From: Pigoraptor vietnamica | Taxonomy: Eukaryota > Opisthokonta > Filasterea | Length of the DNA stretch: 21,271 nucleotides | Assembly (NCBI GenBank): GCA_943704525.1 | Contig: CALSCQ010000669.1 | Location: 1 to 21,271, forward strand | Reading direction: 5' to 3' | Part shown: one piece after another, positions 2,396 through 20,776 of the stretch | How the letters are laid out: each line of letters begins with the position of its first letter | Numbering within the stretch: position 1 is the stretch's first letter | Program-made: the position numbers and the translations under genes | The notes under the pieces: generated by a model | The model's input: only the letters and a program-made list of their open reading frames with translations | Told to the model about the DNA's origin: nothing | The model's database searches: none

Positions 2396-5300
2396 ATGAG
2401 TGCGGCGCAGCTCGGAGCCCCCGTCGTGGACTACGTGGCCCTCGTGGGCGCGGCCAAGGGACCCCCCGTGCCGCTCTACTCTGGCGGCATTGCGGGCGGC
2501 GTCGACCTCGATGTCTCCAGCCACCTCCCCATCACGGACCTTGCGCTCATCTCCGCCGGTGTGCCGGTGCGCTGCTGCTGTGGTTGCGTACTGTGGATTG
2601 TGCCGTGTTTCTGCTGTGGTTGCTTGTGGATTGTGGATTTGGCGTAACGCCGCGGACTGAATTGGTCCTTGCGCGGTCGTATGGTGCCGATGTCTCTTTT
2701 CATGTCTGCTGACTTCGGGAGGCGCGTGTGTTGGCAGTGCCCGGAGGGTTTTACGCAGGTCGATGGAGACCTGGGTAACCGCACGTACCTGTGCGTGAAG
2801 CGCGGCGGCGAGGACAAGCTCTCCGTGACGGAGATATTCACGGCAACGCTCTTGGACGCGGGCGTGCCGGGCCTCTTTGACCTCCCGGGGGTGCGTTGTG
2901 CCATTTGCACGTGTGTGCGTGTGCGTGATGCGCCGCTTGTCGTATGCGCTTCTCGCTCACCCGTGAACTTACGCACGTCGTTCTCTTTCTCAGTCGCAGC
3001 GTGCAGAGGCGGCCATCATGAGCTCCCTGCGGCTCCTCGTTAGTCCTGAGACGCACGGGCGCGACCTGCTCCCGCTGACGTCTGAGATTGCAACCCACGC
3101 CTCGTTCCTATGCACCGCGTGCAAGGGCGGCGCGGACGCCGTCTCGCATCCTGCGCTCAAGCAGCAGTTCACCGCGCACAGTCGCTCGATCGCAAAGGGC
3201 GCGTCGGCGCTTGTCGCGAGCGTACGAGACCTCGTGCAGCAGCGCAGTGACGAGGCGCGACGGCGGCTGGAGGAGAGCGCGCGCCACCTGCAGGCGGCGA
3301 TTGAGGCGCTGAGTGCGTATGCGCAGTGCGAGCCGTGCCCGGCGAACGTGTCTCTTGTACCGCGCCCCGTTGACACGAGCGGCCTCGGCGCCTCGACCTT
3401 CGCCCTCTACATGTCACGTGACGCGTCCAAGTCTCCCATCGTGGACGTGCTCGTGTTGCCGGCGGCGCAGAGCGGCGTGCCCCCTCCGCCGCAGTACAGC
3501 GTGTGCGAACCGCTCACGTTCAACACGTCCGTGACGAGCCCCTACGAGAGCCGCGCGCGCATCTGCATCAAGCGGGCCCAGCGCTATCCCGAGATGAACG
3601 TGGCGTACCGCGCCGCCATCCTCGACCGGCACCCGCTGACGGACCAGGCGGACTTTCCGCTGCCGCAGGCGCTGCCGTTCTTCTGTCTTCCGGACGGCGT
3701 CGTGTACCACCCGAAGGAGCGCAAGCCGCACTTTTTCACCTTTGTGCTCACGGATGCGCTGGGCGGGCGGCTCTACGCCAACTGCCTCGTCTTTTACGAG
3801 CGCGTGCAGATTGACGTGGACAACAATGTGACGACGGCGTGGGCGCCGAAGGTCCTGTGCCTCATCAGCCGCTTTCCATTCTACACGGTGTTCTCGCGGT
3901 ACCTGCGCACGCTGCACGACACGATGCAGGTGCCGTGCGAGGTGCCGCTCGAGCGCCTTCTCTCGAATTTGTTTGAAGGTGCGTTGTTGGCCGCTTTTTT
4001 TGAAGTGTTCCGCAGGCATGTGTCGCGCTGTGATATCGTCGTATTTGGGATCGCGCATTTGTCGCTGACATTGTCTCCATTGCACACCCCTCGGCGCAGT
4101 CCCGCTGCCCCCGCCCGGCCGCATCGCCATACAGCTGCAGGTGGGCCAGGGCACCGTCGTGTTCTCACGGCCACCGCCCACCGACTACCCGATGGCGGAC
4201 TACTCGCTGCTGCCGCTCTTCCACGCACTTGACCTCGAAAACGTCGTCTCGTTCTTCTCGCTCGTGCTGGCCGAGCGCAAGGTCGTCGTGCAATCGTCGC
4301 ACTATTGTGAGTGAACCCTTGCTTATCTGTGTACAAGCACGCGTACACACAAACGTACAGACACTTAGACGCACAAGGCATGAATGTTCCCGCATGCATG
4401 CGACGACTCAGCTGACGCCGTCTCTCCCGCAGCGCTCCTTGCGCCCGTGTGCGAGGCCATCTGCGCGCTGCTGTTTCCGTTCCGGTGGCAGCACGTCTTC
4501 ATTCCTCTCTGTCCCCCCGTCCTCATGGACTTTCTCCAGGCGCCCATGCCCTTCATAATCGGGGTCAAATCGGGTGCAGTCGACATCTCCACCCTCGCCC
4601 CGGATGTGTTCGTCGTGGACCTCGACACGAACCAGATACTGCGCAACGCCGACGGCAACGCCTCTGCGGCACCGCAGTCCGGACTCCCCTGGCGCGGCAA
4701 GTACCGGCTGATGGAGAGCCTGCGCCACGAGGGGTGCGCCGCGAACCTCTTCATCCGCAACTACACGCAGATGGACGCGATCGACTCGCACCCGTTTGCC
4801 GAGCCCGCGTCGCCGTACCCAGGGTTCAAGTCGGCCAACCAGAGCCGAATGGAGCAGATTCGGGAGGCCTTCCTCGCGTTCTTTGTGTCACTGTTCGGGG
4901 AGTACCGCGATTTCGTGCGCCCGCCGACCGCCGAGACGCTCAACGACTACGACATGGACGACCTCGAGCGGCTGTTTGACATGGCCGGGTTTTTGCGGTC
5001 GCAGATGCCGGAGAACCGCGCGTTTGTCGAGGCGTTCATGGAGCGACAGGCCTTCGCCCGCTTCCTCGAGGAGCGCTCCGAGTTCACCGACCGCGAGCAC
5101 GAGTATACGTTTTTTGATACGTGCATCGAGGCGATGAAGGCGCGCCCCATGGGGCGGGGGTCGCTGGCGTCGTCGACCACGCACCTGCCCGCCCTCGCAC
5201 CGGCCGCCCCCGAGAAGCCGCCGGCGCTCCCGCAGGGCGGCGCGGTGCTCGGCGTGTCGCCCACGCACATGAGCGGGATGTTGCAGGCGGGGCAGGCGCT

Positions 5301-7405
5301 GTCGCTGCACGGCGCCGCCGGGCTCTCGGGCCCCGGCGGTTCGGTCTATCGCGTGGTGCGCTTCCCTCTGCCGGAAATGGGGGGGCTCCCGCCGGGCAAG
5401 ACGTACTACTACGGCGGACACATCTCCGGGTTCGAGCGCAAGATGTTTGTTCCGCCGCGGCGCCACAACATCAACATGCGCACGCTGTCGGCGAGGCCAG
5501 GCGACGGCGGGCGCGTCGAGGGCCATCACGACGACGACCTCGGACCCTTCCCGCCGTTTGGCGCGGGGCGGCGGCCGTCGATTTCGTACCGCGAGTCGGG
5601 CGACATTGAGGAGGACGGCGGCGCGGCGGTGGCGCTGTCGCCCGGGCAGCCCGCCGCGCGGAAGGGACCGGAGCTGCCGGACGCGTTTGGGTCGGCGCAG
5701 ACGTTTCTCCGCACGATTTTCAACGCGTGGTTCCTCGTCTTCTCGACGTACGTTCCGCTCAGCCCGGAACCCGACGCCGTGTTTGCGTACGCGAACACCG
5801 TGCTCGAGCGCATGGAGTGGGCTGGAATTCCCGCCGACGAGACGGTGTTCCGGTACCTGCTGGAGGCGTGCGCGCGGGCCGGTCTTTCGCGCCACGCCAA
5901 GTCGGTGTTGAAGATGCTCGGCGACGCGGGCATTGCGCCCAATGCGACGACGACGGGCCTCTTTGTGAAGGCCGTCGCGGGGGAGCACGCCGGCCCAGCC
6001 GTCATGCGACTCCTCGCGCAGCAGGCGCCGGACCCGCAGGTGACGCCGGTCGCCGCCGTGCAGCGTCTGCGATCCGACTCCGTTCGCGCGGTGCGGACGG
6101 CGTCCATTGGGGCGGCCTCGACAGGCTCTGAGGGGGACGCGCAGCCCGCCCGCGCACAGACGCCGCCGCCGCCCGCGCAGCCGTCGGTCACGTGGCTGAG
6201 CGACGCGCTTGGGCTCGGGTCGGTAGTGATTGAGAGCCGGCAGGTGTGTTCGTCGTGCCAGGCGCCCGTGTGCGAGGAGGACGTCCTCATCGGCTGGGCG
6301 ATCAACCGCTCTGTGTTCAAGACGATATGCCCGCGCTGCGACGCCGCGTTCCTGCCGGCGCTGTCGTGGCACGGCGTGCCCTCTCTCCCCGGCTATCCGA
6401 ACGTCAAGCCGACGGGGAAGTGTCCGTACCTCAGCCCAGAGATGTTCCTGAAGGAACTGGACATTCTCGTCAGCCAGGGCGACGGCGTCGAGTTTCGCAA
6501 GTCGCCCGCACGCATGATGGCAGACCACCCGACCGTCTTCTGGAACATGCACTGGTACTTTGGCAACGCCCACCTCCCCGTGTCCTCCTCCGCCCTCCGC
6601 CGCACGGTGCCGCGCGCCTCCATTGGCGGCCCGGGTTCGACCCCCGGCGTGCGCGGCGCGAGGGCGAGCATTGCGCCCGCGACCCCCGCGACCCCCGCCG
6701 CAGCGACGTTCCTCCACGCGGCGTCGCCATCCAAGACGAATCCTCACGCGGACCGCATTTCGCGGCTGTCGGCGTGGTGGCTGCCGCAAGAGTTGGCGCT
6801 CAACACGCTGCGTGGGACGATGATGATGCACTACCGCGTCACTGGCGCGCGGGCGCTGCTGCAGAACAAGCCGACGCGGCGCATCTCTGCCGTCTCCGTG
6901 CTGCCCATCGGACCCGATGAGGTCACCGAGCGCAACGACGCCGTGGTGCAGGCGCTGTCCGAGTGCGCGATTGCACTCGACGAGAAGAACATGCGGCGCG
7001 CCATGGAAGTCTTCCTCGCAGCACGCGCGCGGTGTCCACGCCGGGACGGCGACGGCAGTGCGCTGCTGCACGGGCGCATGTACACGACGCTGCTGGCGCT
7101 GACGACGCGCCAGTCGTATGCGACGGAGAAAGAGTTTGCGGAGTCCTACAGGAAGGAGCTGTCGTCCCTGAGGTAAGAACTGCGTCGCCATTCGCGCAGC
7201 TAGTTCTCGTCCATTGTGCTTACGCGCTACGCGCTGCAGAGCCGGCGTCAAGGAAGAGATGCGCGAGGCGCAGGACGGAGTTCCGGCAGAGGCGTACGTC
7301 GCCTTTCGCAGCGCATTTGAATATCTACGGCCCGCCTTCCATCCCCCGTGGGGCGTGCGTGCGACTGGGGCGTCCGTGTGCGCCTTCTCGTGGAATGCGG
7401 CCTGA
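2396..7405 (+). CDS. DENND4-family DENN-domain Rab GEF (MABP-DENN-PPR)
   Basis: Six exons give 1473 aa: 2396-2566, 2738-2890, 2994-3978, 4100-4306, 4433-7172 and 7240-7405; all phases close and the total is divisible by three. The family activates Rab GTPases (Rab10 for animal DENND4) on membranes. The MABP region is at residues 10-300 (ITDLALI, CPEGF, GDLGNRTYLCVKR, IVDVLVLP). uDENN is at about 310-400 (LPFFCLPDGV, FTFVLTD), cDENN at about 425-590 (LENVVSFFSLVLAERKVVV, FPFRWQHVFIPLCP) and dDENN at about 640-705. A PPR-like unit follows at about 957-1015, then a CSSC...CPRC pair at about 1111-1141 and the HPTVFWNMHWYF segment at about 1204, all features of DENND4 rather than other DENN proteins. 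The final exon completes a conserved-looking C-terminus. Intron 1 could instead start at 2561, which would remove two residues. The start at 2396 follows a good context; an in-frame GTG/ATG extension to 2261 is less likely. No gene symbol is given because orthology within DENND4 cannot be fixed here. Confidence 0.9.
2567..2737 (+). other. Intron 1 of the DENND4-like gene
   Basis: The donor GTGCGC and the acceptor GTGTTGGCAG are separated by 171 bp, with a CTGAC branch-like motif at about 2709. Joining is phase 0 and connects LISAGVP to CPEGF, matching the MABP strand order. An alternative donor at 2561 is also phase 0. Confidence 0.7.
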
Positions 7406-7705: not shown

Positions 7706-10700
7706 CTACACGTCCACAGCCATCCCCGGCATCTGCGGATTCTCGCTGAATGCCTCGGGGCCGTTGTCCACGCGCAGCATGAGGACGGGAACAAGCTCGT
7801 GCGGCGTCGAGCGTCCGCCCAGTTGCGCCACTTCGTACTCCGCGTCGCTCGCTTGGGCCACTGCGCGAGCATCAGCCGATGGCGGCGCGAGGCCTCCAGC
7901 GGCGCTGCCCACAGAGTGCGAGGACGCGGTTGACGAGACCTCCGACGACGACGACGAGCGTCGCGAACCCGTCGCAGCGCGATCGGCCGGAGCTACGACG
8001 ATCGGGGGCGGCATGCGTGCCTTGAGCGCAGGCGCTTTCCGCTCGCGCGGCGGCCGGGGCGCACCAGCCTTGCGGCGGGTCTTTGGGGCACTCGTGCGAC
8101 TGTCGGCCACAGACACGTCCGTTTCGTCCCCATCGCCCACAGAGCCAAACAGGGAGGGCACGTCGTAGCCCGTCTCGAGTGCGAGATCCCGCTGCACGCG
8201 CCACGCATCTGTGCGCTGCTGCTCCGGAGGCGGCTCATCGGGGAACCAGAGCGGTTCGCCCTCTGTGTGTTGCGGCACGCCGACACGCGATGCACCCATC
8301 GGTGGTGAGAGCGGGGGGGATATGGGACGGAAGGCGCTGACCCCGGCGCCCTGCACGCTCGTCTGCGTGTCACCCCACGCCGACCGCGTTGATTGCTGGG
8401 CAACCGATGTCGTGTTGACAGCCACCGCCACGCCCGCACCGTGAGCCTCCGCGTCGATCTGGAGGACGGCGGCCGCGTTCTTCTCTTCGCGCTGCTTGCG
8501 GTGCGCGAGCACGGCAAACATGAACGCGCCAAAGAGCAGCACAAAGAGAACGCCGAGACCAAGGCCGATTCCCAGGAAGATCGCATCTGCCAGTCGAGTA
8601 AGGTGTGGTGCCCGTCAACGAATCTGTGCACGTAACGCAGGCTGAAAGTAACAAGCGATTCACACGTCAAAACAGGCGCCACACTCGATACCCACTCCAC
8701 GAGCAGTAGTCGCCGCGGTACCCAGCGTCGCACGTGCAGCGGCCAGTGACCGAGTCGCACACGCCGTGTCCGCCGCACCCGTGCACGTTGCAACCGGCAG
8801 GAGACACAATGGGGGCTGCACAGGCGACGCGGAAATTCAGCCAAACTCTTATATGGCGGCCACACGGCAGAACGGCACCCACCAACAGAGCAATCGGATC
8901 CCTGGAAGCCGGTCCGACAGAGACACTCCCCGGTGGCAATGTTGCAGGTCCCGTTGCCGCTGCAATTGCGGGGGCAAGCGCCTGCGGTGGTGAAGCGACG
9001 TGAGCGGCTTGTGCTGCGACAACGAACAAGGCACACGGGCTGACAAGAGGGCTACACTCACGGAAAAAGGTAAGGGACAGCGTGTTCTCTGCGGAAGAGA
9101 CGACAATCCTCGCGTCGACGCCGTCGCCAATTCGCGCCGGCAGTGGCTTCGGGAGCAACTGGCCCGGCAGCACGGACACGTCGCCGTAGACACCTCCGGC
9201 GAACTGCGCCAGCGTATACCGCGTGTCGAGGACCGGCACCGCGCCGCCGATAAAGCTGAACGAAACGAATCCGCCAATAACGCCCAGGCCGGCAACGCTG
9301 AGACGCGACAAGGCCACAGGCGGCAGTCCGTCCTCGCCCGCCGAAAGCTGCGTAACAGCGACGGACAGCACCGCGGGGGTGCGCTGCAGGTACGAGCCCT
9401 CCACCGAAAAGCCGCCTGGAGCGCGGGCGAAGGCCGGTCCACGGCCGTCCCCGTGCACAGAAGCGGGCAGTGCGTCCAACACGCCGTTGCTCGCCAGCAG
9501 AACCGTCCCCCCGAGCACAGACACAGGCCCAACAACACGCGCTCCGGCACCGGCGTGGAAGAGCCCTCCCTCCACTACGAGGCCCGCGGCCAAAGACGCC
9601 GACCCGGCCAGTACAAGCGCACCCCCCGCGTGGCGGAGCACGCCGTCCGAACTGATGGACGCACCCAACGACACCGAAAACGTGCCATTGTTCAGCATGT
9701 TGGCGGATCGTGCGACCATTGCGCAGCCATCGGTACACAGGAACGCGCCACCGCGCAGCACGGAAAGTCGGCTGGTGGAGTTGCTCGCATCGCTCTCAGA
9801 CACAAGAGAGAAGGCGCCCGTCGCAGACAAGCGGCCGGAGAGCGCCAGTGACCCTGCGCCCGCGAGCGTCAGGAGGCTCCCGTTCAGCGCTTGCGCGACT
9901 GCCGCATCCCCGACGGACAGGACGCTCGCAAGGGCAAGAGAGGTGCCCCACATGCGTAGGGACGAGGACGCGACGACGGAGCCCTGGCCGGCCAGCAGGC
10001 CACCGGACCAATCCATCGACGTGACGTTGAAGAGCCCACCAACGTCCACGCGCCCGCCCGCAATGGTGGCACGCGTAGCAAACAACGCGCAGCCGGAAGG
10101 AACGGCGACCGCACCCTGGGTCACGAAGACGACGTCCACGTACGACGCAATCGGGGTCGTCGGGACGGGCAACGGGGCGATGCGCCGCCGGTCTGCCGCC
10201 GACGCACTGGCGACGACGTCGACCTCGCCCCCTGCGTCGACCGTAACATTGCCCAACACCCCGGCGCCGGCGCGAACAGCGGAGCGCCCGAGCAGGCGCA
10301 AGACGCCGCCGCCAAGCACGTGCAGGCAGGCTGCATCGGTGAGCGCAATGTCGGCGTCGTTCACCGCGAGAACACCTCCCACTGCCATGCACGCGTTCCG
10401 CAACTCACGAAGGGATGCGCCCGTGCGAACGGAAAGCGTGCCCCCCACTTGGAACGCCCCGTCTCCGGAAATTTCGCCGCCCGTCCAGTTGCCTCCGCCG
10501 ACACTGAGTCTGCCAAGCGCCCCTCGCAGCTGGCCACCTTCCAGCACCAGTGTACCCACGCCCATCGCAGCCCGCACGACCCCGCTGGCGGCGCCGCCTA
10601 TTCGAAGGAGAGACAGTGCCGCTGGCCCGGGACCCGAAAATTCGCACACTGCGTCGCCCGAGACATCGGCTGCCAACAGCGACGGGCTGCCCGCAATCTT

Positions 10701-12512
10701 CGCCACCGCCGAGCCGTCCAAAGCGAGACGCGCATCAGAGCGAAACAGCGCCACCGCGTCGAACGTCGCAAACGACTGGCCCGACAGCGACACCTGCCGA
10801 AACAGCAGCACGCCCCCCGCGCCAAATGTCCCGCTCGTCACAACAAGTGTGCCGCCCGCGTCGATTCCGGAAAACACGCCGGCATCCGCAGCGCGCACGT
10901 CGAGTGCACCGCGCGACTCGACGACGGCGGAGGACGCCACCGCGTAATCTCCGGACAGTCCAACCGAGCGCAAGAGCAGCGAGCGCGACGAGGGTCCAAA
11001 GACAACACGCCCCGGACAAGACAGAGGCGCGTCAATTGTGACGAGCGGGCCCGCCACCTCGAGAGACCCTCCAACCCGCACGGCAGCCGACGAAGCGTCT
11101 GCGACAAACAGCACCGGCAGTCCGCTAGCCACTCCTGCGCGCATCAAAGCCCCGGCGCCCACGTCCAACAGCGCGCCCCCCTCAATGCGGACAGCGCCGC
11201 CGCCCGCGACGACGCCCGACGCACCGGACTGGAGGGTCAGGCGAACACCGCGCAGAAGGCATTCACCGAGTGACGCCATTGTGACGGCACCAAACATCCT
11301 CACGGCCGGCGAGACAGTCGAGGAGATGCTTCCGGACGCGAGATTCGCAGCGCCCGCAACGTCCAAGGGACCGCCGAGCGCAACCGCACCGCCGACAACG
11401 TCCAGCGAGCCCGCGCGCGACAGGGCGGCCGCCGTGACGTTCAAGAGGGAGCCCGCGTCCTGCACGCGAAGGAAGCGGGCGACCGAGAGCGCGCCTGCGT
11501 CCACGAGCATGCGTGCTGCCTCAGCCACAAGGAGACTGTCAAACGCGGCCGACGGCGACCGGAGGTTCACAAAGGAGGCAGCGCGCACGTCGACGTCAGG
11601 GAACAGCAGCGCGCCATCAATTACGGACTCGCCACCGAGAAAGCGCGCCGTGTGGCCGCCAGCGAGACCCCCCGGAGGCACCACCAGGCCGCCCTCGAAG
11701 GCCACGGCGCCACGCGTGACGTTGAGCAGGCCACCCACGTGGACGCGAGGGCCCAGGCTGAGCCACGATGCCTCGCTGCCGAGCGCAATCTCCGCGACGC
11801 CGGCAATGTCGACGGCGGCACTGGACGACCCCTTTTCCAGCCGCGCAGCCGCGGAAATGCGCATCGAGGCACCGCGGAGCACGCGAATGGACACGCCGTC
11901 GCCCAGCGAGAGATCGCCGGCATCCCACGCGAGGCTGCCTGACGACGCAGTTACGACAGACCTGCCAACGATTTCGCTCAAATGACCGCACGAGGAGGAG
12001 GAGAGGGACACATGACCGCGCGACCGCAGCGACGCCGCCCAACGTGCAGACGCAAGCGCGACCTCTCCGTCCGAAAGAACGTCGCGGCGTGACAGCGAGC
12101 GCAGCCGCGCCTCAAACGCGGGCGCCCCGCCGCACGTGCCATTGGGACTGCCCACAACAATGCGCCCGCGGCTGCCGACAAGCGTGGGCCCCTCCAGCGT
12201 GATGTTGGCGCCGACAAGCAGCGTCTGCAGGCCGTAACCCATCGAGCCAATGTAGAGCGATGCCACGCGCGCCGCTTGCGAGAGGACGACAGAGTACGTG
12301 CCGTCGGACTCAATCACAACGACATCCTCGCTGGAGGGCACTTGCGGCGGGTCCCAGTTGGCCGCGTCGTGCCAGTCGCCCGCGCCCTGCGTCGGTGTCC
12401 AGCGCACGTGCGTTGCGGCAGCGCACGCGAGCACGAGCCACAGGGCGACCCCCAGCGGCAGTCGCCAGCAGGCCAAAATGGGGCGCCGCGCCATGGCCCG
12501 CGCGGGTCGCAC
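7706..12512 (-). CDS. Secreted-repeat, two-EGF, single-pass membrane protein
   Basis: Four minus-strand exons, 12512-9062, 8981-8883, 8815-8696 and 8586-7706, give 1516 aa, and every intron is phase 1. The N-terminus (residues 1-34; an alternative ATG lies six codons in) is a signal peptide with a basic start and the core LPLGVALWLVLACAAA. Residues about 35-1150 are Gly/Ala/Ser/Val-rich repeats, opening with GDWHDAANWDPPQVPSSEDV, a pattern typical of beta-solenoid surface proteins. Two six-cysteine EGF-like modules follow (about 1151-1183 and 1184-1223), then a hydrophobic helix (about 1225-1249, containing GIGLGLGVLFVLLFGAF), basic stop-transfer residues HRKQR, and a Pro/Ser-rich cytoplasmic tail of about 265 aa. 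It is therefore a type I surface protein, plausibly an adhesin or receptor. The ligand is unknown, and the last intron has an alternative donor that would break the frame. Confidence 0.85.
8696..8815 (-). other. EGF-like module exon 2 (phase 1-1)
   Basis: The 120-bp exon encodes the second EGF-like module: GCNVHGC, HGVC, GRCTC, GYRGDYC. The acceptor is CTGTGCAG at 8816. The donor GTGGGT at 8695 is phase 1, and the next exon begins after ACTGGCAG at 8587, directly before the transmembrane segment. In the reading frame used there is a stop just upstream of that acceptor, which supports the splice. Confidence 0.78.
8883..8981 (-). other. EGF-like module exon 1 (phase 1-1)
   Basis: The 99-bp exon encodes one complete EGF-like module: CPRNC, GTC, ECLC, then GFQGSDC, six cysteines in the usual spacing. 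The flanking introns are 9061-8982 (donor GTGAGT, acceptor CCACCGCAG) and 8882-8816. Because both are phase 1 the exon is symmetric and can be gained or lost without changing the frame. Confidence 0.8.
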
Positions 12513-19183: not shown

Positions 19184-19935
19184 GGAGGGCCGGGTGGAAT
19201 CTGCACGAAGGGTGCAATCTGCACTGAGGGCGTAATCTGCACTGAGGGCATAATCTGGCCGGCGGAGGGTGCAATCAGCACGGAGGGTGGAATCTGCACT
19301 GAGGGCGTACTAATCTGCACTGAGGGCGTATTCTGCACTGAGGGCATAATCTGGACGGAGGGTGGAATCTATTCAGCACGGAGGGTGCCAGTGAGTGGAA
19401 TCTGGACAGAGGGTGGAATCAGCACGGAGGGTGGAATCTGCACGAACTGGCAAGGTGGAATCTGCACGAAGGCTGGAATCTGCACTGAGGGCCGGGCGTA
19501 CTAACGGCTGCACTGAGGGCGTAATCTGGACGGAGGGTGGAATCTGCATGGAGGGTGGAATCTGCACGGAGGGTGAAATCTGCACGGAGGGTGGAATAGC
19601 GTCCAGAACAAAGACGTGAACAAAATGAGGTAGGCCAGTTCTACAGCGGTGGACCGCGCGGTTCGGCACAATGCTGGCGAGGTCTAGAAAAGAATGACAT
19701 GCGCCGGGCAAAAATGGTGAAATCCGCATTGAGGGCAAATTAAATCAAATCGGAGGGCACAAAAATCTGCACGGAGGGCGAAATTAGAACGAATTGCACA
19801 AACAACACTGACGGCGAAATCAGAACGGAGGACAAAATCAGCACGGAGGCGCCATCCGGCAGCACGGAGGGCGGAATCTACACGAAGGCCGGGTGGAATC
19901 TGCACGGACGGCAGAATCATCACGAAGGGTGGATT
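19184..19935. repeat. 18-bp minisatellite array, GGAGGGTGGAATCTGCAC type
   Basis: Many head-to-tail units close to GGAGGGTGGAATCTGCAC, with variants CTGAGGGCGTAATCTGCA and GGAGGGCATAATCTG. The array is dense from 19184 to 19600 and more diverged from about 19720 to 19935, with a unique insert at about 19600-19720. The 18-bp period leaves six-residue repeats open on both strands, but unit-length variation breaks the frame repeatedly, so I treat it as non-coding. Confidence 0.85.

Positions 19936-20548: not shown

Positions 20549-20776
<228 letters not shown>

Follow-up and report, generated by a model that had tools for sequence, protein, structure and literature searches.

The stretch analyzed here (the window; 21,271 nt, contig C260) carries on its minus strand a gene that begins with an ATG at position 12494, ends with a stop codon at position 7706, and, after splicing of three predicted introns, forms a single open frame of 1510 aa. 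Exon 1 (9062..12494) contains the start ATG, a signal peptide at about aa 1 to 27 (judged by eye), and an ectodomain of about 1117 aa that is rich in Gly, Ala, Val, and Ser. It is followed on the same strand by intron 1 (8982..9061; 80 nt, GTGAGT..CGCAG), exon 2 (8883..8981; 99 nt) with EGF module 1, intron 2 (8816..8882; 67 nt, GTGGGT..TGCAG), exon 3 (8696..8815; 120 nt) with EGF module 2, intron 3 (8587..8695; 109 nt, GTGGGT..GGCAG), and exon 4 (7706..8586), which encodes a transmembrane (TM) helix (about 8586-8504) and a cytoplasmic tail of about 270 aa. All three introns are in phase 1, so that exons 2 and 3 are both of class 1-1. They have exactly six cysteines apiece in EGF spacing and score singly at 29.8 and 28.0 bits against the Pfam EGF_2 model (cut-off, 22.1); together, they reach 40.7 bits and exceed the EGF_Teneurin cut-off as well. 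The sequence-only reading had described one six-cysteine EGF module per intervening exon, followed by a transmembrane exon, and with both modules above the EGF_2 cut-off this description holds.

The ectodomain of the predicted protein contains 12 N-glycosylation sequons, and the tail contains the tyrosine motifs GYDVP and EYEVA and five PxxP motifs; a Pfam search detects no kinase in this gene. The sole Pfam match in exon 1 is a sub-threshold one to Amnionless (aa 40-86, E value of 0.005), phmmer searches of solved structures with this exon return only E values of 0.79 and 1.2, and a genome-wide search with the N-terminal 287 aa of the mature ectodomain recovers nothing but the query region itself. 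Alignment-free structure prediction gave a mean pLDDT of 31.0, and no fold was drawn for exon 1. The gene codes for a type I surface protein with the EGF pair as a membrane-proximal stalk, and the role of this protein is likely to be that of a receptor or an adhesion molecule. On the plus strand of the window, positions 4384-7176 encode a protein with a DENN plus a dDENN domain.

Splicing of the window gene

Introns were predicted with an ab initio gene finder that combines coding and non-coding Markov models, splice weight matrices, and intron lengths and was trained on the loci surveyed below. An intron penalty of -5 led to runaway self-training, with up to 2498 introns, and the penalty was then raised. 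The splice consensus learned by the gene finder is G|GTGNGT for the donor and CGCAG for the acceptor. Trained on the other 40 loci, with the window excluded, it returned the identical three window introns, and these calls did not change across three intron penalties. Among frame-compatible splice pairs, those of introns 1, 2, and 3 have the locally best summed scores (11.3, 12.8, and 9.5), the runner-up pairs scoring 8.2 for intron 1 and 7.7 for intron 3, with none listed for intron 2. The borders are GT..AG in all three introns, and the running length of the coding sequence places each of them in phase 1. The earlier claim of phase 1 for each of the three introns (9061-8982, 8882-8816, and 8695-8587) is thus confirmed, at the level of gene prediction, by the borders, the running length, and the gene finder that had not been trained on the window.

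Retention of an intron would bring in an in-frame stop codon only in the case of intron 3. Introns 1 and 2, if retained singly, break the frame by their length, but together they add 147 nt and restore it, which is why a raw open reading frame of 1283 aa spans the region.

Pairs of paralogous genes provided a check of the gene models. In the closely related loci L018 and L019, the phase agrees in all 13 compared introns; identity is 86-96% for 12 of the 13 exons that follow them (62% for the remaining one) and 37-69% for 12 of the 13 introns (85% for the remaining one). In the pairs L024/L031 and L045/L046, phases agree in six compared introns per pair. For the first five of these, the following exons are 50-66% alike and the introns 17-47%; in each pair, one of the two genes has a cut or shortened sixth exon, and here the exon is no more similar than its intron (36% versus 38% and 17% versus 36%).

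Intron phase and exon class around EGF modules

The genome searched comprises 32.5 Mb in 1395 contigs and contains at least 148 EGF_2 matches (150 of the 362 candidates were scored), which were grouped by hand into 63 EGF loci on 61 contigs, the window included. Introns were surveyed in 41 of the 63 loci, namely, the window, 20 of the best-scoring loci at up to 10 kb, and 20 more at up to 3 kb, for a total of 271,752 bases with a G+C content of 60.2%. The loci were picked before their introns were known, with a bias toward short open frames, and EGF modules were located on the predicted spliced proteins by a six-Cys expression.

The 97 genes predicted in these loci have 410 introns, of which 121, 179, and 110 are in phases 0, 1, and 2, respectively. 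Introns lying outside a six-Cys module and no more than 15 residues from it have a very different distribution (6/27/1) from those inside the modules (1/3/3), the remaining introns of EGF genes (62/88/65), and the introns of genes without EGF modules (52/61/41). Thus, 27 of the 34 EGF-flanking introns are in phase 1, versus 149 of 369 other introns (Fisher's exact test, p = 1.0e-5; the seven module-internal introns were excluded). With a single member kept per paralogue family, the counts are 21/27 versus 127/316 (p = 1.6e-4), and with the window left out as well, 18/24 versus 122/303 (p = 1e-3). A permutation of phases within each of 18 genes gave p = 0.0046. This is the weakest of the tests, yet a strict one, because the six-Cys expression overlooks some Cys-rich modules, and these, too, are bordered by other introns of the genes in question (e.g., in L018 and L048). 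The phase-1 excess that the sequence-only reading had predicted for EGF genes of the same genome is therefore present in the loci surveyed. At the frequency of phase 1 found in genes without EGF modules (61 of 154 introns), three consecutive phase-1 introns would be expected by chance in about 6% of cases; the three window introns have no significance when taken alone, and the survey is significant.

Exon classes show the same tendency. Among internal exons of 25-80 residues, 38 of 49 with six or more cysteines belong to class 1-1, as compared with 18 of 130 with at most two cysteines (p = 1e-15); for those with three to five cysteines, the count is 3 of 25. With one member per family, the respective counts for the first two groups are 24/32 and 18/118 (p = 2.8e-10), and the count of 38/49 stays the same at three intron penalties. 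Could all this be due to chance or to ab initio gene modeling? The gene models come from DNA alone, three phase-1 introns in a row are not a rare event, as noted above, and a module could be missed if an intron were wrongly predicted within it. Against such an artefact stand the exon and intron conservation between paralogues, the stability of the calls over parameters, the recovery of the window introns without the window in training, and the p values of 1e-5 for flanking introns and 1e-15 for exon class, and we consider it very improbable.

Class 1-1 exons are one mode among several in this genome, and arrays of modules within an exon are commoner. Of the 228 six-Cys modules, 195 share an exon with other modules, and no more than 15 are the sole module of an exon of up to 80 residues, 11 of these exons being of class 1-1. 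At the extreme, a single predicted gene in L012 (C583:23000-32999) has 65 EGF modules on very long exons. Likewise, the coincidence of module and intron borders is exact in the window, and most modules genome-wide have no intron at their border; in 5 of the 10 genes with a six-Cys EGF module just before a TM segment, there is no intron between the two. Introns nevertheless avoid the modules themselves: of 41 introns located in a module or close to one, 7 interrupt the module, versus 20.4 expected (p = 1.5e-5).

A bias of this kind might arise with exons that never moved, if introns were inserted at module borders and splice-like sites there gave phase 1. The introns of this genome favor G before the donor, and phase-1 introns, all taken together, split Gly most often (33 cases), which would suit the argument, made in the excerpt of Patthy 2021 (PMC8001218) used here, that Gly-rich linkers lead to phase 1. 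However, when each possible insertion point in the real linkers is weighted by the exon letters that introns of this genome prefer, the expectation for phases 0, 1, and 2 is 35, 33, and 32%, whereas 79% (27/34) are observed in phase 1 (p = 4e-8). Furthermore, only 1 of the 27 EGF-flanking phase-1 introns splits Gly, while 8 split Ala and 5 split Pro. Linker composition does not explain the phase-1 preference here, and the account in that excerpt, which derives the phase from Gly codons at AG|G sites, does not fit this genome. We therefore regard the insertion of introns around immobile exons as quite unlikely.

Shared exon boundaries in unlike receptor genes

In EGF module 1 of the window gene and in L024, L031, L045, and L046, 5 nt separate the upstream intron from the codon of the first cysteine, and 7 nt separate the codon of the sixth from the downstream intron. 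A second set of boundaries, with the intron 2 nt before the first cysteine, is shared by L017, L025, L034, and L040. The carriers of the first set have different ectodomains: Gly/Val repeats in the window gene, an ANF_receptor ligand-binding region in L024, and a Cys-rich one in L045. In both L024 and L031, a single EGF exon and a TM segment are found between the ANF_receptor region and a kinase, and Pfam assignments of these two domains (PF07714 for the kinase) were made on L024 only. The ectodomain of L045 has only EGF matches in Pfam. To the eye, L045 seemingly runs into a kinase; its stretch is cut there, and Pfam finds no kinase in it.

Whole arrays of class 1-1 exons, mostly of 33-38 residues, are present in L018, L019, and L048, and such arrays also occur in L034. 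L018 encodes an EGF-type array, a TM segment, and a tyrosine kinase (PF07714, 280.8 bits); L019 is a close paralogue whose kinase is assigned by similarity, and L048 is cut by the end of its stretch. By eye, the ectodomains of L018 and L019 (and of L048) start with a DSL-like segment, which is followed by EGF-like 1-1 exons.

Nucleotide-exact borders of module exons are thus found in otherwise unlike proteins, but sequence similarity does not group their carriers. The genes that share boundaries with the window gene are absent from the 43 genome matches to its EGF-TM region, so that common descent of the shared-boundary exons rests on position and not on sequence. The best non-self matches to this region are on contigs C91, C993, C121, C1113, and C617, and in the two of these that were surveyed, C91 (L039) and C993 (L020), no intron comes within 15 residues of the EGF module.

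We consider exon shuffling and duplication via phase-1 introns, in a genome outside the animals, to be the best reading of these data and a fairly probable one. An EGF exon whose length is a multiple of three and which has phase-1 introns on both sides could be duplicated, lost, or placed in a further phase-1 intron with the frame left intact. EGF exons would have spread and multiplied among receptor ectodomains through duplication and through recombination within phase-1 introns, as has been described for animals.

The sharing of boundaries might alternatively go back to an ancestral EGF-TM cassette that was inherited by several receptor families, with the ectodomains replaced upstream at a later time and the introns surviving as old landmarks. 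The identical boundaries in module 1 of the window gene, L024/L031, and L045/L046 are what such a cassette would leave behind, as is the phase-1 intron that separates an EGF-type module from the TM exon in the window gene, L024, L031, L042, L043, L045, and L046. However, the TM exon of L018 and L019 is preceded by a phase-0 intron and contains the last cysteine. In addition, the tails are unlike, with a kinase in L024 and none in the window gene, and there are arrays of class 1-1 exons in L018, L034, and L048 as well. Moreover, replacing an ectodomain through an upstream phase-1 intron would itself amount to shuffling. On balance, inheritance of a cassette appears unlikely, if still deserving of weight, and the shared boundaries more probably stem from exon shuffling than from the descent of one EGF-TM cassette.

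Duplication of symmetric exons together with their introns does take place in this genome. In L022 (positions 5650-6574), a 142-nt unit is tandemly repeated 6.5 times, each unit consisting of a 72-nt leucine-rich repeat (LRR) exon of class 2-2 and a 70-nt intron. The mean identity between units is 0.87 for exons (n = 4) and 0.92 for introns (n = 4), and this duplication of exon and intron is recent. More generally, 10 of 13 exons that are 24 residues long and have at most two cysteines are of class 2-2; these are LRR exons by eye, with the Pfam assignment made on L022 only. No recent copy of an EGF exon was found in the arrays compared (the window, L018, L034, and L048), and the DNA of the two EGF exons of the window gene is 0.57 identical, versus 0.55 for shuffled sequence.

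The sequence-only reading had left two options, either a modular logic at work in this lineage as in animals or acquisition of the modules as exons. The first is supported by the phase-1 excess of 27/34 versus 149/369, whereas acquisition from elsewhere finds no support here. Lateral transfer of EGF exons, or of the whole gene, from an animal would account for the fact that the nearest solved relatives of the window modules are teneurins (E value of 2e-16), an animal family. However, the codon use of the window gene falls within the range of the window (GC3 of 0.77; 0.71-0.87 in six other predicted genes), and other receptor genes of this genome have the same exon class and splice consensus. 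On the grounds of codon use and this resident splice consensus, we set transfer from an animal aside as hardly credible.

Likeness to known systems and nature of the host

In the excerpt of PMC8001218 used here, the sign of exon shuffling is an agreement of module and exon borders combined with a non-random intron phase, and both are present in this genome. The same excerpt describes class 1-1 module shuffling as practically restricted to animals, states that shuffling helped create genes for multicellular life, and cites a study that found no exon shuffling in Monosiga. As in the animal systems described there, module borders coincide with introns, the flanking introns are in phase 1, and the exons are multiples of three; the modules are extracellular ones of EGF types and stand in receptors before a transmembrane exon. 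In contrast to that description, the host is apparently not an animal, the split codons are mostly not those for Gly, the LRR exons are of class 2-2, and the majority of EGF modules lack an exon of their own.

In teneurins, eight EGF modules are followed by the NHL/YD-repeat superfold. The window modules resemble the teneurin and EGF_2 modules (PF23106 and PF07974) in having six cysteines with matching spacing and scores above both curated cut-offs, and the best phmmer match among solved structures is to teneurin-2. However, the window gene has only two EGF modules and no teneurin domain in exon 1 according to Pfam, and its product differs from teneurins in topology, being a type I protein with a C-terminal tail. 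With just two modules and no Pfam match to the NHL/YD-repeat region in exon 1, the gene was rejected as a teneurin.

Holozoan receptor tyrosine kinases with EGF ectodomains are known as a group. L018 and L019 resemble its members in their arrays of EGF-type 1-1 exons, TM segment, and tyrosine kinase, whereas the window gene has no kinase match and its tail consists of short tyrosine and proline motifs.

The gene content of the genome suggests that the host is a unicellular holozoan and not an animal. A degenerate nucleotide pattern for the kinase motif HRDLAARN has 28 matches in the genome, 26 of them coding for exactly HRDLAARN, and the reversed pattern, used as a control, has none; there are 27 matches to SH2. 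Integrin beta is detected on four contigs (on one of them below the cut-off only), and long runs of cadherin repeats are found on two contigs, C1328 and C874, with a model that also matches one archaeal control. Searches of the genome for Wnt and for the nuclear-receptor ligand domain, run without a positive control, gave no match. This content of tyrosine kinases, SH2, integrin beta, and cadherins presumably resembles that of unicellular holozoans. The window gene had earlier been labeled a protist surface protein; "protist" is a label that rests on gene content. The window also encodes a FolB (dihydroneopterin aldolase) domain (15480-15019, minus strand; E value of 1.2e-8). The lack of an HPPK match in the genome, in a search with a working control, weakened the case for taking folate genes as proof that the host is not an animal.

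If the shuffling reading is true, a mechanism that built the molecular toolkit and is held to be an animal innovation would predate multicellularity. Its signature in a holozoan-like genome would either move the process back in time or show it to be capable of arising a second time. We see about an even chance that class 1-1 module shuffling was already active in the single-celled relatives of animals, or had an independent origin in them, and built their tyrosine kinase receptors and other receptors from EGF exons. The data also bear on the cause of the phase-1 preference, which in this genome is not linker composition. A literature search by titles and abstract openings, in which subscription journals were mostly uncovered, found no report of class 1-1 EGF exons in a protist.

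Repeats in the window, at 1194-1528, 19192-19597, 20552-20773, and 1-115, comprise 18-nt tandem arrays (in two places), a (GA)n run, and an (AC)n run.
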